DNA of 64,000 nucleotides from Levilactobacillus tangyuanensis (lineage in GTDB: Bacteria > Bacillota > Bacilli > Lactobacillales > Lactobacillaceae), in NCBI RefSeq assembly GCF_003946545.1, contig NZ_RHOA01000001.1:248001-312000 (forward strand). The letters are read 5' to 3'. How positions within the stretch are numbered: the first letter of the stretch is position 1; every line of letters starts with the position of its first letter. Position numbers and translations under genes: made by a program. The notes under the pieces were generated by a model. The model ran no database searches and was not told the origin of the DNA. It saw only the letters and a list, made by a program, of their open reading frames with translations. Below, piece after piece: positions 17,321 through 27,737 of the stretch.

Positions 17321-17427
17321 ATATAGGGTGGCAGCCATAATAAAACTTATGAGACGTTTAAGGCCCGTCCGCTTTCGAAGCTCGTATAATGAAATTATAA
17401 TATGGCTTGAACTGGGACTTGGACTGG

Positions 17428-17610
17428 GTCGCCTACGGTGGCCAGACGCCGCCCCATGAGGCAGACCTGAGGCCTGAAAGGCGGTCCTCAGGGCAACTTT
17501 GACCCTCACCAAAACCGTGAGTCCCAAAGATTGGCCAGTCCTCTAAACCGGGGAACCCACCCGGTTAAGACGACATCCACGGGGCTCTGTCTGGCCACCT
17601 TCGGCTGAGA
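17428..17610 (+). repeat. Structured repeat element, copy A
   Basis: First copy of a family of about 190 nt. Helices in order: closing stem GGTGGCCAGAC (17437-17447) with GTCTGGCCACC (17589-17599); P2 CCTGAGG (17466-17472) with CCTCAGG (17486-17492); P3 CTCAC/GTGAG around CAAAACC; P4 GTCCTCT (17538-17544) with AGACGAC (17568-17574, one mismatch) and an inner AACCGGG/CCCGGTT. Forms a direct tandem with copy B at 223-bp spacing. Confidence 0.85.
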
Positions 17611-17650
17611 ACTTTCGAGTCATTTGTTCTTGGCTGTGGGATGAGATTTG

Positions 17651-17833
17651 GTCGCCTACGGTGGCCAAACGCCGCCCCATGAGGCAGACCTGAGGCCTGA
17701 AGAGCGGTCCTCAGGGCACCTTTGACCCTCACCAGAACCGTGAGTCCCAAAGGTTGGCCAGTCCTCTAAACCGGGGAACCCACCCAGCTAAGAGGACATC
17801 CACGGGGCTCTGTCTGGCCACCTTCGGCTGAGA
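17651..17833 (+). repeat. Structured repeat element, copy B
   Basis: Near-identical to copy A. P4 is GTCCTCT (17761-17767) with AGAGGAC (17791-17797), now fully paired. After it, GGATGAGATT, the bases that precede the 5' end of copy B, recurs near 17862-17872, followed by a degenerate GGTCACTTACGATGGCTGG, a remnant of a third unit. The spacer 17900-18095 shows no gene. Confidence 0.85.
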
Positions 17834-18095
17834 ACTTTCGAGTCATTTGTTCTTGATCCTGGGATGAGATTGGGTCACTTACGATGGCTGGATTTTTTGG
17901 TTGGAAGTATCTGGCGGTTTTAAAGGGATTTATCAACTGAAACATTCAATGGCCAGATGCTGATTATTTAACTTGAAATAACGGTCTGATTTCGGAAAGA
18001 TATAAGGTTTCATGGAGACCAATGTCTCCTCTGGTCAGGAGCGTGCCAAGTGATTGGAAACGTAGGGAGCTGTTTTTGATTTTGGTTTTCCATGG

Positions 18096-18285
18096 GATCT
18101 TAGCCAAAGGTGGTTAGGGGCGGAGTCCTGTGACAGTGGTGTTGGTCGGGGCCTTGCCGACCTACAGCACGGGCCGTCCTTCGAGCCACACGGTCTTGGT
18201 ATGGCTTGAAGGCGAGCTTTCAGACCGCCTCTCAGGCTGGAAGCGGGCCCCATAGGACGGAGCCCCTAACCGCCGACGGCGGTCC
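18096..18285 (-). repeat. Structured repeat element, copy D (minus orientation)
   Basis: In plus-strand coordinates the closing stem is GGTTAGGGGC (18112-18121) with GCCCCTAACC (18262-18271), then GTCCT (18125-18129) with AGGAC (18254-18258), and P4 GGTCGG (18144-18149) with CCGACC (18157-18162). Read on the minus strand it aligns with copies A-C, including CCGCC..CGGCGG at the 5' end, ATGGGGC, GCCTGA.A..CGGTC, and CACCTTTGGCT at the 3' end. Confidence 0.8.
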
Positions 18286-18367
18286 AATATCAAGAAAAAA
18301 GTCAGAGACCGCCTTCGACGGTCAACATAAAAGAGACTAACTAGAGAAAAAGAGTAGGGGTGGTTTG

Positions 18368-19678
18368 ATGGGATTACAACGAGGATTGAAGGGACTGTGG
18401 CGTCTCAATCAACGGACGAGTCAGTGGCGGGCAGTATGGGCCATTAAGGAAGCTTTGCGGGTCGCTTATCCATTTATCTTGGTCATGACGATCATTGATT
18501 TTGTCGGGCAAAGTTTTTTGGCCGGAAGCGGGTTCTTTTTCCAGATTTATCATGTTGGGACTTGGCTGCCGGGCCTGGAAACCTGGCGGGAACTGTTTCA
18601 GGCGGTTAGCACGGTGGTGAATGGGGTCGTCGCCGTAATGATTGCCTTCATCACGGGTCATTATTTAGCGCGGACGTATCGGAGTGATGCGATCGCCGTC
18701 GGGGTGATGAGTGCCCTGGCCTTTTTGACACTGAATGTGAATTATCAGGCGCTCGGTCAAACCGACCGTGGGGGTGACCAATTAACCCAATTCGTCGAGG
18801 GCAACCTAGGCCCACAGGGGATTTTCCTGGCCATCGTTGTCGGGCTAACCGTTGGTTGGGCCGGTAGTCGACTGATGCAGGCCTTGCGTAAGCTTCAATT
18901 GCGGCACCCTAAGTGGCAGCTGTCGTGGACCGGTCGCGTGGCCTGGCCACTGGCGTTGGTCTTATTGATCACGACGGGTCTGGGCTACGGTTTAAGCTGG
19001 GTTTCGGCCGGTGGACTGAACGGCCTGGTTTATCAGGGATTGAGTGCCTTGGTCACCAATCCCGGTCACCGTGGCCTGATGATCCTGGGGGTCACCGCCT
19101 TGAATAACATTCTATGGTGGCTTGGCCTGATTGGGCCAGTCTCTCTAGCTGGCAATAGTTCGGTGACTAGCCTGCAAAATCTGGCCTATGCCGTCCAACA
19201 CGGTTCTGGATGGGGTGCACCCAATCCAATTACCTTACATACTTTGGGCGACGCCTACGCTAACTTTGGGGGTGCCGGGATGACGCTGGCCCTGATCATT
19301 GCGATTTGGATCGGTTCACGTCAAACCAGTTACCGCCGCGTGGCTAATCAGACATTTTTGCCTAATCTGGTCAATTTAAACGAACCGACACTCTTGGGAT
19401 TACCACTCTTATTCAACCCTATTTTACTAATTCCATTCGTCTTAGCACCGGCCGTGAACATTGTCGTAGCCTGGTTTGCCTTAACCTGGAAATTAGTGCC
19501 ACCGATCGTATATCCCGTGCCCCGCACGACGCCGGGCCCCTTGATTGCTTATCTGGGGACCGGTGGGGATTGGCGGGCCCTGGTTCTAAGCGTGATTTGC
19601 TTGATATTATCCGTCTTAATTTATTTGCCATTCGTGCGGTTACTGAATGACCAAGGGGGTGACCGCGATGCGGCGTAA
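18368..19678 (+). CDS. PTS system EIIC component, lactose/cellobiose-type, orphan
   Basis: Ten-helix sugar-transport membrane subunit of 436 residues. The EIIC signature NLVNLNEPTLLGLPLLFNP (about 340-358) corresponds to the substrate-binding FNINEPVxFGLPIxxNP loop of CelB/LacE-type permeases, with the key NEP intact. No EIIA or EIIB domain is fused or adjacent, so it must use partners encoded elsewhere or be regulatory. AGGGGTGG precedes ATG 18368. It overlaps the next gene by 11 bases, indicating one operon with a DUF915 hydrolase. Sugar specificity is not readable. Confidence 0.85.
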   Translation: MGLQRGLKGLWRLNQRTSQWRAVWAIKEALRVAYPFILVMTIIDFVGQSFLAGSGFFFQIYHVGTWLPGLETWRELFQAVSTVVNGVVAVMIAFITGHYLARTYRSDAIAVGVMSALAFLTLNVNYQALGQTDRGGDQLTQFVEGNLGPQGIFLAIVVGLTVGWAGSRLMQALRKLQLRHPKWQLSWTGRVAWPLALVLLITTGLGYGLSWVSAGGLNGLVYQGLSALVTNPGHRGLMILGVTALNNILWWLGLIGPVSLAGNSSVTSLQNLAYAVQHGSGWGAPNPITLHTLGDAYANFGGAGMTLALIIAIWIGSRQTSYRRVANQTFLPNLVNLNEPTLLGLPLLFNPILLIPFVLAPAVNIVVAWFALTWKLVPPIVYPVPRTTPGPLIAYLGTGGDWRALVLSVICLILSVLIYLPFVRLLNDQGGDRDAA

Positions 19679-20555
19679 TTGGTGGCGTTGGCTATTACTC
19701 ATGGTGATGATTGCCGTGATCTTCGTGCCCAGTGTGGCCTGGATGCATCGGCGGGTTGCCAAATACAAGACGGTCTATCGAACTCCGTTGAATCCAACTA
19801 TTTTAATTCCCGGGTCTAGTGCCAGTCAAAATCGGTTTGACGAGTTAATTACGGAGCTACGCAAGGAAACCAAAGTGGTGCACAGTGTCTTGAAGGTTAA
19901 GGTTGCCGAGAACGGGCAGCTTTCCTATACCGGTTCCATTCGCAAAGGGGACAATCAGCCCTTTATTGTGATCGCCTTTGATAATAATCATGATGGGTAC
20001 AGCAATATTAATAAGCAGGCTGCCTGGTTGAACATTGCCTTTAAGGACCTGGTGAAGACGTATCATTTTAATCATTTCTCCGCGTTGGGTCACTCGAATG
20101 GTGGACTCATTTGGACCCTGTTCCTGGAGAAATACTTTGCGCAAACGTCGCGGGTCGATATCGACCGATTAATGACGATTGCGACCCCGTATAACATGGA
20201 GTCCGCCAGCACCACTAAGCGAACGGATATGTTAAATGAGCTGGTTAAGTATCGTGAAAAGTTGCCGGCAAAACTGACGGTATACTCCGTGGCCGGAACG
20301 GAAAATTATTCCAGTGATGGTACGGTGCCTGCCAACAGTGTTAACCAAGGAAAATATGTCTTTCAAAACCACGTTGCCCACTATACCCAAATCACGGTTA
20401 CCGGCGATCAGACGACGCATTCGGACTTGCCGCAAAACAAACAGATTGTGCTCTTAATTCGGCAGTATCTGTTACAGGAAAGTATTCCGGCTAAGGATCG
20501 GGCGAAGCAGACCGTCAATCGCCGCGCGTTGAATGGCGATCCAGATTTGCCGTAA
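19668..20555 (+). CDS. Membrane-anchored alpha/beta hydrolase (DUF915 type)
   Basis: A 295-residue protein with an N-terminal signal anchor (WWRWLLLMVMIAVIFVPS, about 4-21) and an extracellular alpha/beta-hydrolase domain. ILIPGSSASQ forms the oxyanion loop, GHSNGG (about 140-145) carries the nucleophile Ser, SDGTVPANS supplies the acid Asp, and a His near TTHSDLPQN completes the triad. ATG 19668 is preferred, with AAGGGGGTG at 19653-19661. It is coupled to the EIIC gene. The family is annotated as cell-surface hydrolase with no proven substrate. Confidence 0.85.
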   Translation: MRRNWWRWLLLMVMIAVIFVPSVAWMHRRVAKYKTVYRTPLNPTILIPGSSASQNRFDELITELRKETKVVHSVLKVKVAENGQLSYTGSIRKGDNQPFIVIAFDNNHDGYSNINKQAAWLNIAFKDLVKTYHFNHFSALGHSNGGLIWTLFLEKYFAQTSRVDIDRLMTIATPYNMESASTTKRTDMLNELVKYREKLPAKLTVYSVAGTENYSSDGTVPANSVNQGKYVFQNHVAHYTQITVTGDQTTHSDLPQNKQIVLLIRQYLLQESIPAKDRAKQTVNRRALNGDPDLP

Positions 20556-20560
20556 GCATT

Positions 20561-20569
20561 TGGTATAAT
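20561..20569 (+). promoter_or_regulatory. Extended -10 promoter of the LysR gene
   Basis: TGGTATAAT is a perfect extended -10, 22 bases before the start codon. No -35 is evident. Confidence 0.6.
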
Positions 20570-20590
20570 GATTTTGAGGAGGTGACCGTC

Positions 20591-21448
20591 ATGAATTTTC
20601 GTCAATTAGACTATTTTTTAGCGGTTGCGAACGCGGGCCAAATTACGGCGGCTGCCCAACAGTTACACATGGCACAACCGCCGTTGAGTCATCAGCTGAA
20701 ACAATTGGAGGATGAACTGGGCGTTCAACTCCTGCGTCGCTCACCAAAGGGCGTGACGTTAACGCCGGCAGGAAAATTGCTCCGTGACTATGCCCAACAG
20801 TTGGTGGACTTACGAGAACGGGCGAACAGTCAGGTTCGGTCGTTGGGGCAGGGCTTAGCAGGTGTCCTGTCGGTGGGGGTGGCGTCTTCTTCGCTGGGCG
20901 CCACCCCCAACAGCAAGCTACAAACCCTAACTCGTCATTATCCTAAGGTACAAATTCGATTATTTGAGGACAATACCTATGGCCTGATTGACCGATTGGA
21001 TAAACACCTGATCGACATCGCCATCGTGCGGACACCATTTACCGCGCCAGGATTAACGGCCAAGGCCTTGACGACGGAGTCCATGGCGGCGGTGGTTCCG
21101 AAGAAGTATGACCATTTTTCCGGGGCAACCATTCGGGTTGAGGATCTGGCAGATGTTCCCCTAATCATCTATCGGCGCTTTACCCAACTCTTCCAAACGA
21201 CCTTCGACCAGAAGGGCATCGACCCGTTCATTGCCTGTACCTGTGACGATGCACGGACGGCGGTCCAGTGGGCCGAGGACCACATGGGGGTGGCGATTGT
21301 GCCCCAGTCGGTGGCCGAGGCCGGTAGTGGGTTAGCCACCAATATTCGGCCGATTCGCTATCAACCCTGGCGAACGACCCTGCAGTTGGTTTGGCCAGCT
21401 GCCGTAACGCCGAGTCCGTTGATGCAGCGGTTCATCGATAGTTATTGA
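20591..21448 (+). CDS. LysR family transcriptional regulator
   Basis: A 285-residue LTTR. The N-terminal winged helix MNFRQLDYFLAVANAGQITA leads into AAQQLHMAQPPLSHQLKQLE (about 22-41) and the wing LRRSPKGVTLTPAG. A periplasmic-binding-like effector domain spans about 90-285. The strong GAGGAGGTGA at 20577-20586 marks ATG 20591. LTTRs usually control a divergent gene, but here the upstream gene runs in the same direction; the closest candidate target is the TauE/SafE exporter downstream. Effector unknown. Confidence 0.92.
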   Translation: MNFRQLDYFLAVANAGQITAAAQQLHMAQPPLSHQLKQLEDELGVQLLRRSPKGVTLTPAGKLLRDYAQQLVDLRERANSQVRSLGQGLAGVLSVGVASSSLGATPNSKLQTLTRHYPKVQIRLFEDNTYGLIDRLDKHLIDIAIVRTPFTAPGLTAKALTTESMAAVVPKKYDHFSGATIRVEDLADVPLIIYRRFTQLFQTTFDQKGIDPFIACTCDDARTAVQWAEDHMGVAIVPQSVAEAGSGLATNIRPIRYQPWRTTLQLVWPAAVTPSPLMQRFIDSY

Positions 21449-21478
21449 CCAATTTTAAATATATGCTGAATACAAATT

Positions 21479-21522
21479 AAAGCCGCCATCCATATTTTTT
21501 AGATATGGATGGCGGCTTTGTT
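21479..21522. terminator. Terminator with 17-bp perfect stem
   Basis: Arms 21479-21495 and 21503-21519 (core AGCCGCCATCCATAT) are perfectly complementary, followed by TGTT. The tract 21523-21714 contains a short CTGGCG/CGCCAG hairpin but no gene. Confidence 0.75.
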
Positions 21523-21714
21523 ATGCGATCGATTCCAAGCCCGTTAAACGGGGATTGTGAGGCGGCTCTGGCGTAAGTGACGCCAGGAAAGTGACAAAGG
21601 GCCTTTCGTTCATCTATGAACATATAGGCTGTTGCAAAATGATCATCCCTGTTATAACAGCACCTTAGATTGTGATTAACGTTCAATCAGATGGTGCGAC
21701 AACGTTTGACTAGC

Positions 21715-21743
21715 TTGCACGGTGATCGGTAAAGACTCATAAT
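21715..21743 (+). promoter_or_regulatory. Promoter of the TauE/SafE operon
   Basis: TTGCAC (21715-21720), exactly 17 bases, and CATAAT (21738-21743), 33 bases before the start codon. Confidence 0.55.
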
Positions 21744-21776
21744 TACCCGTAGAATGAATTGAGAGGAAGTTGCCTT

Positions 21777-22622
21777 ATGATGCAAACAGCTTTACTCATG
21801 CTGGGAGTTGGGATCTTCGCTGGGATTGCGGGATCGATCCTGGGAATTGGTGGGGGTATGATCATCACGCCAATTCTAACTCTGGGGATGGGATTAAATA
21901 TTAAATACGCGATTGGTGCCAGTATCATTGCGGTTATCGCAACGAGTTCCGGCGCCACGATCGCCTACCTACGCGACAATGTTTTAAATCTACGCGTCGC
22001 CATGTTCTTGGAAATTGCCACCACGATTGGGGCCATTGTTGGGGCGCTCTTAACGGGTATCCTGGATCCAAAGTATCTCTATTTATTGTTCGGCTGCCTG
22101 CTGGTCTTCTCGGGCTGGAACATGGTTCGGAAGCTTCGGCGGGGTCAAGAGGTCCTACAACGAGTGGAACCGGATAAGATTGCGGCCAAGCTGAAATTAA
22201 ACGGAAGTTATTATGACAAGGCCGAAATGAAGGACATTGACTACCAAGTCGAGAATATTCCGGCCGGCTTCTCCGTGATGTTTGGTGCCGGCGTGGCCAG
22301 TGGTCTCTTGGGTATCGGTTCGGGGGCCTTCAAGGTGATGGCCATGGATACCTTCATGAAGATGCCTCTGAAGCCATCGAGCTCGACCTCGAACCTGATG
22401 ATGGGGGTTACGGCCGCGGCCAGTGCGACGGTCTACTTCTTTAACGGAGCCATTTTGCCTGGTATTGCAGTTCCCATGGCCTTGGGAATCCTAGGCGGTG
22501 CCGTGGTTGGGTCCCGGATCATGCAGGTCTTACCGGCTAAATGGATTCGAATTGTCTTCATTCCGGTGATTCTGTATATTGGTCTCCAGATGTTATTCAA
22601 AGGTTTGGGGGTGCACTTCTAA
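21777..22622 (+). CDS. TauE/SafE family (TSUP) sulfite/sulfonate exporter
   Basis: Membrane transporter of 281 residues with about eight helices in two homologous halves. The repeated glycine-rich motif is seen as GSILGIGGGMIITPILTLG (about 20-38) and again in GLLGIGSGAFKVMAMD. The family moves sulfite, sulfoacetate and related anions. GAGAGGAAG precedes adjacent ATGs at 21777 and 21780. It is coupled (TAATG) to a DUF1634 protein, its usual partner. Substrate is inferred from family only; the location near trx-cstR fits sulfur chemistry but is not proof. Confidence 0.9.
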   Translation: MMQTALLMLGVGIFAGIAGSILGIGGGMIITPILTLGMGLNIKYAIGASIIAVIATSSGATIAYLRDNVLNLRVAMFLEIATTIGAIVGALLTGILDPKYLYLLFGCLLVFSGWNMVRKLRRGQEVLQRVEPDKIAAKLKLNGSYYDKAEMKDIDYQVENIPAGFSVMFGAGVASGLLGIGSGAFKVMAMDTFMKMPLKPSSSTSNLMMGVTAAASATVYFFNGAILPGIAVPMALGILGGAVVGSRIMQVLPAKWIRIVFIPVILYIGLQMLFKGLGVHF

Positions 22623-22999
22623 TGGCAGATAAGCAAACGGCAACTTCAAAGGAAATGCTACAGGTAGAATCGGTTATCGGTCGGATTCTCCAAGTAGGGG
22701 TGATCTTCTCTGCGATTGTGATGGCCATTGGGTTGGGACTCTTTCTGATTACGGGCAAGTCCGGCTATCCCGGCACGATGGTTCCCCGGCAAATGGGGTT
22801 AATCCTGCAGGGAACGTGGCAGTTAAAACCCTATGCCATTATGATGCTGGGCGTCTACTGCCTGATCTTGACCCCCGTCTTACGGGTCGTTGTTTCCATC
22901 TACGCCTTCTATAAGGAACGGGATCACCTGTACGTAGCGATTACGACACTGGTTTTGTTCATCCTCATGGTGGCCCTGTTCATTGGGGTTCATGGGTAA
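22622..22999 (+). CDS. DUF1634 membrane protein, partner of the TSUP exporter
   Basis: A 125-residue protein with three hydrophobic segments (about 18-40, 65-85, 98-122) and a polar N-terminus (MADKQTATSKEML). DUF1634 genes habitually follow TauE/SafE genes; here the start codon overlaps the exporter stop. The gene ends before a clear terminator. Biochemical role is unknown. The longer frame beginning at 22541 lies inside the exporter and is not the real start. Confidence 0.85.
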   Translation: MADKQTATSKEMLQVESVIGRILQVGVIFSAIVMAIGLGLFLITGKSGYPGTMVPRQMGLILQGTWQLKPYAIMMLGVYCLILTPVLRVVVSIYAFYKERDHLYVAITTLVLFILMVALFIGVHG

Positions 23000-23018
23000 C
23001 TTTCAAAGATCATTAATT

Positions 23019-23056
23019 GGTCCAAAGACTGGTCTATTCAGTCTCTGGGCCTTTTT
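23019..23056 (+). terminator. Rho-independent terminator
   Basis: GGTCCAAAGACTG (23019-23031) pairs with CAGTCTCTGGGCC (23039-23051) with few mismatches, followed by five T. Confidence 0.8.
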
Positions 23057-23120
23057 GCGTTCTATGAGATTATCATGAGAAAATATGCTAAACTAACTGT
23101 AATTAGGTTGACGGAATAAG

Positions 23121-23301
23121 TCCGCCTACGGCGGCCGAACGCCGCCCCATGAGGCAGACCTGAAGCCTGAAAGGCGGTCTTCAGGGCAACTTTGGCTCTC
23201 ACAAGAGACGTGAGTCCCAAAGATTGGCCAGTCATCTAAACCGGGAGAACCCCCCAGCTAAGATGACAACCACGGGGCTCTGTTCGGCCGCCTCCGGCTC
23301 G
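23121..23301 (+). repeat. Structured repeat element, copy C
   Basis: Same fold as copies A and B with compensated changes: closing stem GGCGGCCGAAC (23130-23140) with GTTCGGCCGCC (23282-23292); P2 CCTGAAG (23159-23165) with CTTCAGG (23179-23185); P4 GTCATCT (23231-23237) with AGATGAC (23261-23267). The spacer to copy E (23302-23451) carries no gene. Confidence 0.85.
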
Positions 23302-23451
23302 AGATTTTCGACGACATTTTCGTTAGCGGGTATTCAACAAAAATAATGGTTAATTTAATTAACAGGAATACTCCTGTTCGGTGGTTACTTTGGAGATACC
23401 TGGCGACGGAAACCGTGGCAGTTAGTGGGTTCTTGACTGGTCTTTTCCTGG

Positions 23452-23641
23452 GATCTTAGCCAAAGGTGGTTAGGGGCGGAGTCCTGTGATAGTGGTGTTA
23501 GTCGGTGGGCTGCCGACTTACACCACGGGCCGACCTGCGAGCCGCACGGTTTTGGTGGGGCTTGCAGGCGAGCTTGCAGACCGTTTTTCAGGCTGGAAGC
23601 GGGCCCCATAGGACGGAGCCCCTAACCGCCGACGGCGGTCC
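23452..23641 (-). repeat. Structured repeat element, copy E (minus orientation)
   Basis: Closely similar to copy D. Closing stem GGTTAGGGGC (23468-23477) with GCCCCTAACC (23618-23627); P4 GTGGTGT (23492-23498) with ACACCAC (23520-23526) and AGTCGG (23500-23505) with CCGACT (23513-23518), where D has GGTCGG/CCGACC. It faces copy C tail to tail, as D faces A and B. Confidence 0.82.
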
Positions 23642-23715
23642 AATAGCCAGGATCAAATCTTGGCGAACAATCATGAAAATTAACCGACATAAAACTTGAG
23701 AAAGGCGATGACGTC

Positions 23716-24936
23716 GTGGGGACACGAAAGACAGAACAATGGCAACGGAATTTGGCAGTACTGTGGCTGGGAACCTTCATTGCGGGGATGGGCTTCAGTG
23801 AAATCATGCCGTTCTTGTCGCTGTACGTGGATGACCTAGGGACCTTTACTAAGGGACAGCTGACCATCTACAGTGGGATGACCTATGCCGTGACTTTCCT
23901 GGTGATCGCCTTAGTCTCACCACTCTGGGGGAAGCTGGCAGATCGCAAAGGGCGTAAATTAATGCTGTTGCGGTCTTCCATGGGTATGGCGATTGTCATT
24001 GGCCTGATGGGGTTTGTGACGAACATTTGGCAATTGATCGGCCTGCGGTTTTTGCAAGGCTTCTTCGCTGGTTATATCCCGAATGCCAGCGCGTTAATTG
24101 CCTCCGAAACACCGAAGAATAAGAGCGGCAATGCTTTAGGAATTTTAACCACGGGTTATGTCAGTGGGAACCTGATTGGCCCAGTGCTGGGTGGGATTCT
24201 AGCGCAGGTTTTCTCAATTCGCTGGACCTTTATTCTCACGGCTATTTTTCTGGGAATTGTCTTCGTGTTAAGTGCGACGTTAGTTCATGAACACTTCACG
24301 CCGGTTAGCGCCGCGAAACAGGCGCAGGCAGGGAGCTGGCTATCACAGCTTAAAAATCCCAAGTTGATTATTATTTTGTTGGTTTCAACGATGATTATTC
24401 AAATGGGAAATAACTCGATTACGCCAATTATTAGTCTATATGTTCGACAACTGATGCATGGGAGTGGGCCAATCACCCTGGTCGCCGGGATCATTGCGGC
24501 CTTGCCCGGGCTGTCAACGCTATTGGCGGCGCCTAAATTGGGGGAATATGGCGATCGTCACGGGACGCGCCGGGTATTGGTTTTTGGCTACGTCTTTGCG
24601 GTACTCATGTACTTTCCTCAGGGCTTCGTTAGCAGCGTTTGGTTGCTGGGAATTTTGCGCTTTATGATTGGCGTTTCCGATGGGGCATTGTTCCCCGCGG
24701 TCCAAACCTTGTTGACGAAGAACTCGCCGCAGTCGCTGACGGGAACCGTCTTTAGCTGGAACCAATCATTTCAAGCGTTAGGGAGTATGTTGGGGGCGAT
24801 GCTAGGTGGTTATATTGCCAATTGGTTCAACTACAGTGGCGTCTTTACTTTTACTGCGTTGTCGTTACTGGTAAACTTAGTCTTACTATGGTGGCTGGTG
24901 CCGACGGTCCGTCAATGGCACGTGAAAGCAGCCTAG
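23716..24936 (+). CDS. MFS transporter, drug:H+ antiporter type
   Basis: Twelve-helix major facilitator of 406 residues. Motif A between helices 2 and 3 reads GKLADRKGRKLML (about 75-87), and helix 5 has the antiporter-type TGYVSGNLIGPVLGG. Translation starts at GTG 23716 after AAAGGCG. It is followed 13 bases later by a small alarmone synthetase, so the two are probably co-transcribed. The drug-efflux label follows the motif pattern; the substrate is unknown. Confidence 0.88.
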   Translation: MGTRKTEQWQRNLAVLWLGTFIAGMGFSEIMPFLSLYVDDLGTFTKGQLTIYSGMTYAVTFLVIALVSPLWGKLADRKGRKLMLLRSSMGMAIVIGLMGFVTNIWQLIGLRFLQGFFAGYIPNASALIASETPKNKSGNALGILTTGYVSGNLIGPVLGGILAQVFSIRWTFILTAIFLGIVFVLSATLVHEHFTPVSAAKQAQAGSWLSQLKNPKLIIILLVSTMIIQMGNNSITPIISLYVRQLMHGSGPITLVAGIIAALPGLSTLLAAPKLGEYGDRHGTRRVLVFGYVFAVLMYFPQGFVSSVWLLGILRFMIGVSDGALFPAVQTLLTKNSPQSLTGTVFSWNQSFQALGSMLGAMLGGYIANWFNYSGVFTFTALSLLVNLVLLWWLVPTVRQWHVKAA

Positions 24937-24949
24937 TAAGGAGGCCAAT

Positions 24950-25609
24950 ATGGCGAACGAAAATTTACCCGTTCAAATTCCCACTGATCCCGCGGCATTA
25001 CAGGCGGTTGATCAGTTTCGACAGTTGATGCTGATGTATAACAGTGCCGTCGAGGTCGTGCAGACCAAGATTAAGTATCTGGATGAGGAATATCAGATTG
25101 AGCACGGCCATAGTCTGGTGGATAGTCAGCAGTCGCGAATTAAGTCGCCCGAGAGTATCTTGGAAAAGGCGCAGCGGAAACACCTAGATGTTAATCTGAC
25201 CACGTTACCGGCAGCCATGCATGACATTGCCGGAATTCGAATCATCGTCCGCTTTGAGGATGATATCGTCACGATGGAGCGCCGGTTGGCGCAACAGCCG
25301 GATATAAAAATTATCAAGCGTAAGGATTATGTCAATCATCCGAAGGACAACGGCTATCGGAGTCTGCACTTAATTTTGGCGGTGCCTGTGTATCTTGCCG
25401 CAGGGATGCAGCCGGTGACGGTTGAGGTGCAGATCCGCACGATTGCCATGAACTTTTGGGCCTCACTGGAGCATGAATTAAACTATAAAAAGCATATTCA
25501 GCATCAGGCCGAACTGCAAAATGAATTACGAGAAAAGGCCAAGTTGGTTAATCAACTCGATCGCGAAATGAACGAGATTAAAAATCAGATTCGGGCAGAA
25601 GAAAATTAA
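24950..25609 (+). CDS. Small alarmone synthetase (RelQ/RelP-type GTP pyrophosphokinase)
   Basis: Single-domain (p)ppGpp synthetase of 219 residues. The synthetase core shows MHDIAGIRIIVRFEDDI (about 89-105), the KDYVNHPKDNGYRSLHL nucleotide and Mg2+ stretch, and VEVQIRTIAMNFWASLEHEL (about 160-179). No hydrolase, TGS or ACT domain is present, which is the SAS arrangement. The C-terminal 35 residues are a charged helix of the type used for tetramerisation. AAGGAGG precedes ATG. Coupling to an MFS gene is unusual; relQ often precedes an NAD kinase gene, which is absent here. Confidence 0.93.
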   Translation: MANENLPVQIPTDPAALQAVDQFRQLMLMYNSAVEVVQTKIKYLDEEYQIEHGHSLVDSQQSRIKSPESILEKAQRKHLDVNLTTLPAAMHDIAGIRIIVRFEDDIVTMERRLAQQPDIKIIKRKDYVNHPKDNGYRSLHLILAVPVYLAAGMQPVTVEVQIRTIAMNFWASLEHELNYKKHIQHQAELQNELREKAKLVNQLDREMNEIKNQIRAEEN

Positions 25610-25650
25610 AAAAACAAGCCTAAACCGTGGCGGTTTAGGCTTGTTTTTTA
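25610..25650. terminator. Bidirectional terminator
   Basis: AACAAGCCTAAACCG and CGGTTTAGGCTTG arms with A and T tracts on the two sides serve the converging genes. Confidence 0.88.
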
Positions 25651-25765
25651 TGTAGTGCGACCAAAAAAGTGACTCGATCAGCGCCTTTTCGTAAGCGCTG
25701 CCATCTAGTCGCTAAAAGAAACGTTTGTGTGAGTTATTGGTTGAATAGAACAGTCTAGCGGGTGC

Positions 25766-25981
25766 CTATTTATCGCTGGCGACCGGCTGAGCTTGTTGCT
25801 TACTCTTGTCCCCAAGTAACTCGAAACCATTGATGGCAATAAAGCCGGCAACGGCAGAAACGATACCAACTGTTACCCAGTTGTAGTTCATCTGTGAAAG
25901 TGTCGAGGTAATGAAGCCAAGGACTTCACCGAAGATGAAGGCCCACACAACGACCACGATATTTCTTGCTAACCATTTCAT
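25766..25981 (-). CDS. DUF2929 family small membrane protein (YjzD-like)
   Basis: A 71-residue protein with two transmembrane helices (about 5-27 and 34-54) and a polar C-terminal tail. The pattern VVVWAFIFGEVLGFI followed by VTVGIVSAVAGFIAINGF is that of the Firmicutes DUF2929/YjzD family. ATG 25981 is chosen because GAGGTGA lies five bases before it; the GTG at 25990 overlaps that Shine-Dalgarno. Function is not established. Confidence 0.8.
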   Translation of the reverse strand: MKWLARNIVVVVWAFIFGEVLGFITSTLSQMNYNWVTVGIVSAVAGFIAINGFELLGDKSKQQAQPVASDK

Positions 25982-26082
25982 TTGTGTCACCTCACAATCG
26001 ATACTAGTTTAACACGATTAATAGGTTAGGAGTAGTTTTGATTTGCTGAATTTTCAAATTTTCAGGTGGCAGGGCGTAGCCA

Positions 26083-26111
26083 TTGCGCTTTTGAAGGCGC
26101 TACCGTATAAT
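26083..26111 (+). promoter_or_regulatory. Promoter of the Na+/H+ antiporter gene
   Basis: TTGCGC (26083-26088), 17 bases, and a perfect TATAAT (26106-26111). Confidence 0.65.
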
Positions 26112-26138
26112 ACTAGTTAAATAGTCGAACGTTGGTTG

Positions 26139-26207
26139 AAGCGATAGCTTTCAAGAATGGCGTCTTCCTTGGGTTGGGAGGGCCAATTTGGAGCGGTCGC
26201 TTTTTTT
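26139..26207 (+). promoter_or_regulatory. Candidate leader attenuator or riboswitch
   Basis: In the leader, AAGCGA (26139-26144) can pair with TCGCTT (26197-26202), closing about 52 bases that include TTGG/CCAA (26174-26177 with 26183-26186). A local hairpin AGCG-GT-CGCT runs into seven T at 26201-26207, just before the Shine-Dalgarno (AAGGAGGAC from 26215). A terminator-like element directly before the ribosome site suggests regulated read-through. Confidence 0.45.
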
Positions 26208-26226
26208 CTGCGTAAGGAGGACACTT

Positions 26227-27417
26227 GTGGAATTATTAAAGGATTTAACTTTAATCTTGTTGGTGACGACGATTGTTGGCCACTACTGTACCCGGATCGG
26301 GATTCCTGCCGTAATTGGTCAGTTATTGGTCGGGGTCATTATGGGACCAGCCATCTTAGGTTGGCTGCATTTAACGCATGAGCTGGATAGCTTTGCGGAG
26401 ATCGGCGTGATTATTCTGATGTTTATTGCCGGACTTGAGAGTGACTTACAATTATTGAAACGTTACCTGAAACCGAGTGTCCTGGTTGCGGCGCTGGGGG
26501 TCCTGGTACCGGTCGCCGGTAGTTACATCGTTGCCCGGGCCTATCAGCTACCCTTTGTCGAAAGTCTCTTCATCAGTGTGATTTTTGCGGCGACCTCCGT
26601 TTCAATTTCCGTCGAAGTCTTAAAGGAAATGAACGCCTTAAGCAGTCGTGAGGGAACGACCATCTTGGGTGCCGCGGTGGTTGATGACGTGTTGGCCGTG
26701 GTCATTTTGAGCGTGCTGGTCAGCACGACGGGGACGGCCGTTGGTGACACGGGGTCGTCGAACCTCTTGATCACCACGATTGAACAGATCATTTACTTCG
26801 CAGCGATTTACTTCGTGGTTCGCTGGGTGGCACCGTACATGGCCAAGATTGGTGAGAAGCTGATGATTCCGATGGGGTCAACTTTGATGGCTATTATCCT
26901 GTGTTTTGGGATGGCTTATGTGGCCGAACTGGTTGGCCTGAGCAACGTGGTTGGGGCGTTCTTTGCTGGAATTGCGATTTCGCAAACCTCTGCTAGGGAG
27001 ACCGTTGACCATCACATCGAGCCGATCGGGTATGCCTTATTCATTCCCGTGTTCTTTGTCAGCATTGGGCTCAATATGAGCTTCAAGGGTCTTGGTCATC
27101 AGGTGTGGTTCATCGTTATCTTGACGGTGGTTGCGGTCTTGACTAAGCAATTCGGGGCCGGAATAGGTGCCAAGATGGCGGGCTTCTCCTGGTCGAGCTC
27201 AATGGCCGTTGGCGCCGGGATGGTCTCACGAGGAGAAATGGCGTTAATCATTGCACAAATTGGTTTTCAGGCCAAGTTGATGTCCTCAATGCGTTACTCG
27301 GCCATTGTGGCGGCAATTATTCTGGCCACGTTGTTGGCCCCATTCCTCTTGCGGTGGACGATGAATCGCGTCGAGAAGGAATCGCAACGCGAAAAGGATG
27401 AAATGAAGAGCGCCTAG
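26227..27417 (+). CDS. CPA2 family Na+(K+)/H+ antiporter
   Basis: Membrane antiporter of 396 residues with about 12-13 helices. The paired ion-binding aspartates lie in GAAVVDDVLAVVILS (about 143-157), and the unwound-helix region is visible as FAATSVSISVEVLKEM. There is no RCK/TrkA domain, so it is NapA-like rather than KefB-like. GTG 26227 follows AAGGAGGAC; the longer frame from 26188 would read through the leader. It ends at a long terminator. Na+ specificity is inferred from the DD pair. Confidence 0.92.
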   Translation: MELLKDLTLILLVTTIVGHYCTRIGIPAVIGQLLVGVIMGPAILGWLHLTHELDSFAEIGVIILMFIAGLESDLQLLKRYLKPSVLVAALGVLVPVAGSYIVARAYQLPFVESLFISVIFAATSVSISVEVLKEMNALSSREGTTILGAAVVDDVLAVVILSVLVSTTGTAVGDTGSSNLLITTIEQIIYFAAIYFVVRWVAPYMAKIGEKLMIPMGSTLMAIILCFGMAYVAELVGLSNVVGAFFAGIAISQTSARETVDHHIEPIGYALFIPVFFVSIGLNMSFKGLGHQVWFIVILTVVAVLTKQFGAGIGAKMAGFSWSSSMAVGAGMVSRGEMALIIAQIGFQAKLMSSMRYSAIVAAIILATLLAPFLLRWTMNRVEKESQREKDEMKSA

Positions 27418-27481
27418 TAAATGGCGATCGATATCGCAACGTGGACTATCTTCCAGTTAAGCAAATTTAAATAGAGTAAAA

Positions 27482-27524
27482 GCGACGTGCCGATCTGAAA
27501 AAATCAGATTGGCACGTCGCCTTT
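27482..27524 (+). terminator. Rho-independent terminator with 17-bp stem
   Basis: Arms 27482-27498 and 27504-27520 pair with one wobble, followed by TTTT. Confidence 0.88.
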
Positions 27525-27564
27525 TGTTGGTTAGGTTATCGTATATTTTTAAATTAGAACCTGT

Positions 27565-27720
27565 GTAACCGCAGGCGGACAGGGATGGTGGCCGCTGTGT
27601 CGGCGGTGTTGGCTGGGGGGTCTTACCAGCCTACACCGCGGGGATTATAGTCGAACTGGAAGCCGATTAATCGGCTGAAAGTGACCCCATAGCGGGTGCC
27701 ATCCCTGGCCACCGGAAGTG
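27565..27720 (-). repeat. Structured repeat element, divergent copy F (minus orientation)
   Basis: Primary sequence differs from D and E but the helices remain: CAGGGATGG (27580-27588) with CCATCCCTG (27699-27707), CCGCT with AGCGG inside it, and P4 GCGGTGT (27603-27609) with ACACCGC (27633-27639) plus GGCTGG with CCAGCC. One hairpin is replaced by the palindrome GCCGATTAATCGGC. It lies directly 3' of the yfhO-like gene. Confidence 0.7.
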
Positions 27721-27737
27721 ACCAAACAAAGCCAAAC

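Follow-up and report, generated by a model that had tools for sequence, protein, structure and literature searches.

Facing pairs of a cloverleaf-like intergenic repeat in Levilactobacillus tangyuanensis and its relatives, probably selected as folded DNA

The genome of Levilactobacillus tangyuanensis carries a dispersed intergenic repeat, the arms of which share a conserved secondary structure and mostly lie in inward-facing pairs. Intermediates of the G·T and A·C kinds occurred in the stems at about equal frequency, whether counted by strand or by the direction of transcription. RNase P RNAs from the same bacterial family had 92% G·U, so the fold is probably selected in DNA. The reading we favour, with about even confidence, is a non-coding composite DNA repeat of REPIN/MITE-like character, with folded arms that would be bound as DNA by a putative protein.

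Arms, sub-families and arrangement

The first-pass annotation had described six copies of a ~190-nt element on both strands of the window (the whole 64,000-nt stretch of L. tangyuanensis DNA analysed). All six (A–F) were recovered with the covariance models (CM) R1 and R2, which also set their limits. When aligned by MAFFT with 20-nt flanks, the six copies had 55 invariant columns out of 235. Beyond that annotation, we recognized two sub-families, T1 and T2, and two composites, with A and B opposite D, and C opposite E.

17426..17608, plus strand: arm A, sub-family T1, left arm of composite 1 (CM R1, 201.2 bits)
17649..17831, plus strand: arm B, sub-family T1, tandem duplicate of A with 95% identity to it (CM R1, 180.6 bits)
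18096..18288, minus strand: arm D, sub-family T2, facing arm of composite 1 (CM R2, 187.9 bits)
17426..18288, no strand: composite 1, two T1 arms facing one T2 arm across a variable spacer, an arrangement that recurs in the genome and the genus
23119..23301, plus strand: arm C, sub-family T1, left arm of composite 2 (CM R1, 191.3 bits)
23452..23644, minus strand: arm E, sub-family T2, facing arm of composite 2 (CM R2, 187 bits)
23119..23644, no strand: composite 2, T1 facing T2 across a 150-nt spacer, based on the R1/R2 matches
27561..27727, minus strand: arm F, lone, divergent and T2-like (CM R2, 70.7 bits)

Such pairs recurred across the window's genome, and lone arms such as F also occurred. 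Neighbouring arms less than 600 nt apart were convergent in 72 cases, tandem in 18 and divergent in none (from 70 segments, with some fetched loci left out and orthologues in related species counted separately). This is the layout of a REPIN, with two inverted homologous arms and a variable spacer, and we propose the two ~190-bp arms, T1 and T2, facing each other as the likely unit. The shortest spacer was 22 nt by the model ends, which leaves no room for two promoters. A terminator role is not favoured, because 21 of the 133 placed arms sat between divergent genes. Model R1 matched 58 of the 301 sampled genomes of the bacterial family, in nine of 40 genera. A search of open-access PMC found no paper on this repeat family.

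Syntenic sites, constraint and mobility

At syntenic sites, entire pairs were present in one genome and absent in another. One clean empty site had 468 nt between the aligned flanks in L. humaensis and none in the window's genome; its flank alignments overlapped by 6 nt, the other sites were too diverged to read a target-site duplication, and none was established. One arm difference was most simply a deletion of ~200 nt between short direct repeats. A simple invertible switch was rejected at one of three flipped-looking sites (L. humaensis L039/L. paucivorans L063), which proved to be a replacement that had left an arm end behind and not a clean inversion.

Between L. lindianensis and L. humaensis, the arms diverged by 9.3% (90.7% identity), compared with 24.6% for the inner spacer (75.4% identity) and 23.2% for codon third positions; other intergenic DNA was conserved about as well as the arms (89.8%). 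The pair L. lindianensis and L. paucivorans was useless as a rate test, being nearly identical over 31–70 kb. The model score of 11 syntenic L. humaensis arms changed by a mean of +2.8 bits, against about −34 in neutral simulations. It rose in eight arms and fell in three, by at most 7.2 bits, and all 11 scored above the means of the simulations. This set left out a partial arm at L. lindianensis 45284, weak matches at L. lindianensis 84 kb, the arms at L. lindianensis 56313/56694 (lost in L. humaensis with a 2.7-kb stretch) and the L. humaensis arm 14116, absent from L. lindianensis. The tested arms decay little and are under constraint.

The composites had no general outer inverted repeat: 48 of them scored 13.6 versus 14.0 for mismatched ones, and p was 0.60 for 33 T1/T2 composites. 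In one genome (G003) the two outer ends of 18 composites matched in a copy-specific manner (permutation p 0.0002, the smallest attainable), with 10 of the 18 scoring at least 20 versus 27% of mismatched ends. Outer-end matching was also seen at L. paucivorans L063. Among the matches listed, none was evident by eye as an autonomous relative carrying the end sequence of G003. A search for PF01797 (IS200/RAYT-type transposase) in the window's genome (G000) and in G034, both arm-bearing, gave zero matches, and neither a transposase nor a binding protein was found; genome G031 had PF01797 and no R2 match, and no match was obtained in G016 either. We rejected a RAYT partner on the lack of a match in the window's genome, and for this reason we did not file the repeat as a REPIN. 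Composite 2 gave no blastn match to plasmids or phages, and two arm patterns gave none to viral contigs, and we rejected carriage by phage or plasmid on this ground.

Alternatively, the arms could be host-owned, BIME-like chromosomal sites that were never really mobile. They would bind a nucleoid, topoisomerase or repair protein, be inherited vertically and differ between genomes by deletion. We consider this unlikely, even though it agrees with the conservation of the tested arms at single syntenic sites, the lack of matches on plasmids, phages and viral contigs, the ~200-nt deletion, and the partial L. humaensis counterpart of lone arm F (a T2-like match of 87 nt on the same strand in the syntenic interval). 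The clean empty site speaks against it, as do the R2 matches, zero in two congeners and 147 in another; these tallies are not arm counts, since one arm may also be counted through its shadow on the opposite strand and scoring covered no more than 150 candidates in each genome. For the composite repeat that we favour, the putative binding protein would once have spread the pair as one unit, in a REPIN/MITE-like manner. Today, protein binding or a host use (e.g., marking or insulating intergenic DNA) may keep the arms under selection.

Fold, covariation and the strand test

The arms had a cloverleaf-like architecture, with a closing stem, an inner stem and three hairpins, and with a bulged T and an A·A mismatch largely conserved in the alignments. 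For T1 (MAFFT, 34 sequences, 52 pairs), 96.3% of the cells were paired versus 87.4% after shuffling, and 177 cells were changed on both sides versus 45.9, a value that none of 500 shuffles reached. The number of "further pair types" was 54 versus 50.5, and 41 of 500 shuffles reached 54. For T2 (MAFFT, 31 sequences, 54 pairs), 242 cells were changed on both sides versus 64.6, and on all five measures none of 500 shuffles was as high. Sliding the partner by 1–3 columns left only 29–48% pairing, a comparison that favours the structures used, since RNAalifold had predicted them on those same alignments. In a set of 16 arms with orthologues, both partners had changed in 46 of 827 pairs, with 7.8 expected. 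A further 68 pairs were changed on one side; against a Watson-Crick partner, G·T accounted for 23 of these, A·C for 25 and other mismatches for 15. In DNA fold predictions for each strand, the six window copies came out 3.2 to 7.8 SD lower than dinucleotide shuffles.

The paired changes named in the first-pass annotation were seen in the copies. Its claim of a compensated structure in a repeat family gained support from the T1 and T2 covariation, which was strong with these additional homologues, and from the pair changes in orthologous arms. Comparison with Rfam matched no family: there were zero matches in the window at the gathering score, and a single match from five loci, at E 3.2, was below that score.

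Genuine RNA tolerates G-U pairs and not A-C pairs. As strand test we used G·T/(G·T+A·C) in the stems, with 30 RNase P RNAs as control, for which the value was 0.92 (0.81–1.0). T1 arms had 0.31 (0.18–0.48), or 0.69 on the other strand, the interval of which (0.52–0.82) just touches that of RNase P. T2 arms had 0.41 (0.28–0.58), or 0.59 on the other strand. With arms oriented by the transcription of co-directional flanking genes, there were 86 G·U versus 88 A·C. A T-box control, with few non-Watson-Crick cells, gave 13 G·T versus 3 A·C over all 30, and groups of seven gave ratios of 7:3, 6:1 and 6:7, at small cell numbers. A mild G·T excess was left on the complement strand of the arms, so the two strands may not be of equal importance.

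The main proposal of the earlier annotation had been a family of structured RNAs, which would act in trans or belong to UTRs, and we find it improbable. It would explain the strong covariation, the conserved loops and the intergenic location. It would also suit the complement of the T orientation, with its mild G·T excess and its better fold in all six window copies, and some T2 pairs rich in U·G (two pairs with nine such cells each). The strand test does not support it, as both sub-families were under RNase P on both strands, T1 just touching on its complement, and the sense strand showed no greater tolerance of G-U than of A-C. The facing pairs with their short spacers and the arms between divergent genes also speak against RNA. 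Of the wording "RNA, or to cruciform DNA under selection", the cruciform was the better half.

Still less probable is a decaying MITE without function, its palindromes kept complementary by mutation alone (template switching corrects quasi-palindromes): it predicts the strand-neutral paired changes observed, but unpaired arm positions are slow too (14.8% changed versus 23–25% for third positions and spacer), the 11 tested arms hold their consensus score, and the bulged T and the A·A mismatch persist where correction should erase them. We favour arms that would act as folded DNA and not as RNA, either as a cruciform or as hairpins formed while the DNA is single-stranded in replication or repair, and that the putative protein would most likely bind in trans.

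Known folded repeats and implications

A known enzyme accompanies large folded-DNA families, for example attC sites, REPINs and viral terminal repeats. Integron attC sites lie in a direct array; their DNA folds, and their extrahelical bases are conserved. The arms here share the folding and such bases, and differ in that they face each other and form no direct array.

REPINs of Pseudomonas fluorescens are REP doublets that form a hairpin, with a RAYT transposase (PMC3116915). As far as the sections drawn on here describe them, they resemble our repeat in the inverted pair as unit, the less conserved spacer, the compensatory changes, the many intergenic copies and the presumed ssDNA fold (PMC3116915). 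Unlike REPINs, which use short REPs, the arms here are ~190 bp with several hairpins, and the window's genome has no Y1/RAYT match. The bcr repeats of the Bacillus cereus group are likewise intergenic repeats of a Firmicute, 100–400 bp long, some families having a conserved secondary structure. The MITE-like bcr1 reaches up to 130 copies; about half of the bcr copies are expressed, and for some a role as RNA is suggested (PMC6542083, PMC3446304). The parts of these sources used here describe no facing two-arm composite for bcr, and tie a TTTAT motif to bcr mobility, whereas none is established for our arms (PMC6542083, PMC3446304). BIMEs are also composite repeats of alternating orientation and serve as protein binding sites, at least in the part of the source consulted (PMC2817692); the unit here is much longer, and its binding protein only putative.

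More tentatively, the arms could be large cloverleaf-like DNA sites, selected one by one as folded DNA across the bacterial family and typically in facing pairs, so that either replication direction would expose a foldable arm. Such sites would number dozens, perhaps over a hundred, per genome, and would imply a protein that reads DNA structure and has a chromosome-wide role. Counting G·T against A·C, with RNase P as the control, offers a cheap separator of DNA- from RNA-level covariation in "candidate structured RNA" repeats elsewhere. If our reading is true, lactobacilli hold numerous intergenic sites at which the fold of the DNA is selected at single loci, and the enzyme for the folded arms, still missing here and in hand for the other large folded-DNA families, could be fished out.

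Facing arms in the window and beyond

The first-pass annotation had claimed six copies of a ~190-nt repeat in the window, and all six were found where it had placed them. These arms form two related sub-families, T1 and T2:

17426–17608, plus strand: arm A, T1
17649–17831, plus strand: arm B, T1
23119–23301, plus strand: arm C, T1
18096–18288, minus strand: arm D, T2
23452–23644, minus strand: arm E, T2
27561–27727, minus strand: arm F, divergent, T2-like

Single-arm BLASTN of the whole genome (2.19 Mb, 35 contigs) gave 15 T1-like, 18 T2-like and 2 F-like places, in part coinciding. After arm B and before the spacer there was the truncated start of a third T1 tandem unit (17872–17892, GGGTCACTTACGATGGCTGGA). 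Immediately outside arm D, a short inverted repeat (18307–18323, GACCGCCTTCGACGGTC) may be the remnant of an outer end. The window gave no Rfam family at the gathering score; when five loci were scanned permissively, there was a single match (E 3.2), under that score.

Most neighbouring arms faced each other. In 229 arm matches from 70 non-overlapping segments, a subset of the fetched loci with orthologues from related species counted separately, neighbours <600 nt apart were convergent in 72 cases, tandem in 18 and divergent in none. An earlier count, with a 900-nt limit and overlapping loci, gave 104, 24 and 1, respectively. Arms without a partner also exist. The spacers between facing arms ranged from 22 to 842 nt and, compared by eye, had no recognisable homology. 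The neighbouring genes varied between copies (16 sites listed).

The T1 covariance model, with filters that drop weak matches, had matches in 58 of 301 genomes sampled from the bacterial family, in 9 of 40 genera; in this survey, two of the 15 same-genus genomes (G016 and G031) had none. When named genomes were scanned with a T1 pattern, 65 stretches were recognized, 60 in Levilactobacillus and five in Lactiplantibacillus. Matches to the T2 model ranged from 0 to 147 per genome (13 chosen genomes, ≤150 candidates scored in each), counts perhaps too high due to opposite-strand shadows. A 150-kb stretch of L. lindianensis had 28 arm matches, partial ones included. No match was found in plasmids and phages by BLASTN with one composite (composite 2: facing arms plus spacer), nor in viral contigs by a two-pattern scan.

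Arm fold and the selected molecule

The arm fold comprises two stems, a closing one with a 3x3 internal loop and an inner one, and three hairpins, P2, P3 and P4. In the alignments, a bulged T in P2 and an A·A mismatch in P4 were mostly kept in both sub-families. The paired changes proposed to keep the helices were borne out: in T1, 32 of the 52 pairs had two-sided changes, and in T2, 39 of the 54, numbers equalled by none of 500 shuffles. The T1 count of further pair types was equalled by 41 of 500. T1 had few one-sided changes, and two T2 pairs had nine U·G cells each.

The first-pass annotation had left the selected molecule as RNA or cruciform DNA. We counted G·T and A·C cells in pairs predicted on both strands. 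The control, a set of RNase P RNAs of this bacterial family (n = 30), had 66 G·T cells versus 6 A·C cells (ratio 0.92, interval 0.81–1.0); a T-box control was too sparse for the strand comparison. In the T orientation, T1 gave 21 and 46 (0.31, 0.18–0.48) and T2 gave 26 and 37 (0.41, 0.28–0.58). The opposite-strand ratios, 0.69 for T1 and 0.59 for T2, were also lower than for RNA, the T1 interval barely touching that of the RNA. With 79 arms turned to the transcription direction of co-directional flanking genes, the count was 86 versus 88. The complement strand was the better folding strand in all six window copies. Because the ratios lie under those of RNase P and transcription direction gives 86 versus 88, our reading is that selection acts on the pairing of DNA and leans mildly to the complement strand. 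The DNA half of the earlier alternative is probably the better one, and the ratios spoke against RNA.

Constraint, gain and loss between species

Between L. lindianensis and L. humaensis, identity was 90.7% in arms, 75.4% in inner spacers, 76.8% at codon third positions, 97.7% at other codon positions and 89.8% in other intergenic DNA. The arms had been picked by model in one species, so ascertainment could explain their value; therefore, we scored humaensis arms with models built from the window's genome alone. Eleven syntenic arms, a set excluding arms wholly lost in one species, changed by a mean of +2.8 bits (eight up, three down by ≤7.2), versus −29 to −40 bits in neutral simulations with 10–14% change. 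In 16 orthologous arm pairs, two-sided change affected 46 of 827 base pairs, versus 7.8 expected, and 38 of the 46 were Watson-Crick in both species. Arms 4, 8 and 13 (indices), which may be replaced copies, account for 28, leaving 18 without them. Elsewhere, L. lindianensis and L. paucivorans were near-identical for ~39 kb (L135–L136, G009:C1:31000-70000, vs L143–L145) and differed by about 10–19% past it; this step in sequence identity points to a recent exchange, sharply bounded at about 70 kb.

At syntenic sites, pairs were present in some species and absent in others. The cleanest case was 468 nt with T1 and T2 between aligned L. humaensis flanks, where the window's genome is continuous; in this copy, the outer inverted repeat spanned 15 bp and contained two mismatches. 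In genome G003, outer ends agreed copy by copy in 18 composites (p 0.0002), and outside G003 there was no general agreement among composites. G003 is a Levilactobacillus rich in composites (L235–L254), and its 19-nt end motif occurred 157 times at ≤3 mismatches, versus 14 for the reversed pattern. The insertion of the cleanest case (L036, 3000–3500) has a promoter-like TATACT on one side and a ribosome-binding-like GAAAGGAAG on the other, and so is probably within a 5' leader.

One arm of L. mulengensis (L111, 6427–6627) was absent from L. wangkuiensis (vs L056). The simplest explanation is that ~200 nt were deleted between direct repeats of ~17 nt formed by the arm ends; short deletion is apparently another route of arm loss. 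Between L. paucivorans (L063, 404–803) and L. humaensis (L039, 2768–3164), the flanks were ~93% identical and the composite orientation differed. The pair was apparently replaced and not cleanly inverted, because a T1 arm end of ~26 nt was left behind.

Relation to known repeats

No description of these paired repeats was found in searches of open-access literature. The passages of a survey of bacterial stem-loop families name L. johnsonii as the sole Lactobacillus, with a different, genic family (PMC2267715). The composite recalls bcr1, as far as the excerpts of PMC6542083 and PMC3446304 describe it. REPINs, in the excerpted text of PMC3116915, are inverted doublets whose spacer is weakly conserved and which show compensatory changes, and the composite is likewise such a doublet, with both of these features. 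The domain of the REPIN transposase RAYT (PF01797) had no match in the window's genome and G034, both arm carriers; G031 had a PF01797 match and no T2-model match. As REPIN-type features are present and this RAYT domain had no match in these two arm carriers, we would call the composite a giant, RAYT-less, REPIN-like DNA repeat, whose arm fold would have a trans-acting reader.
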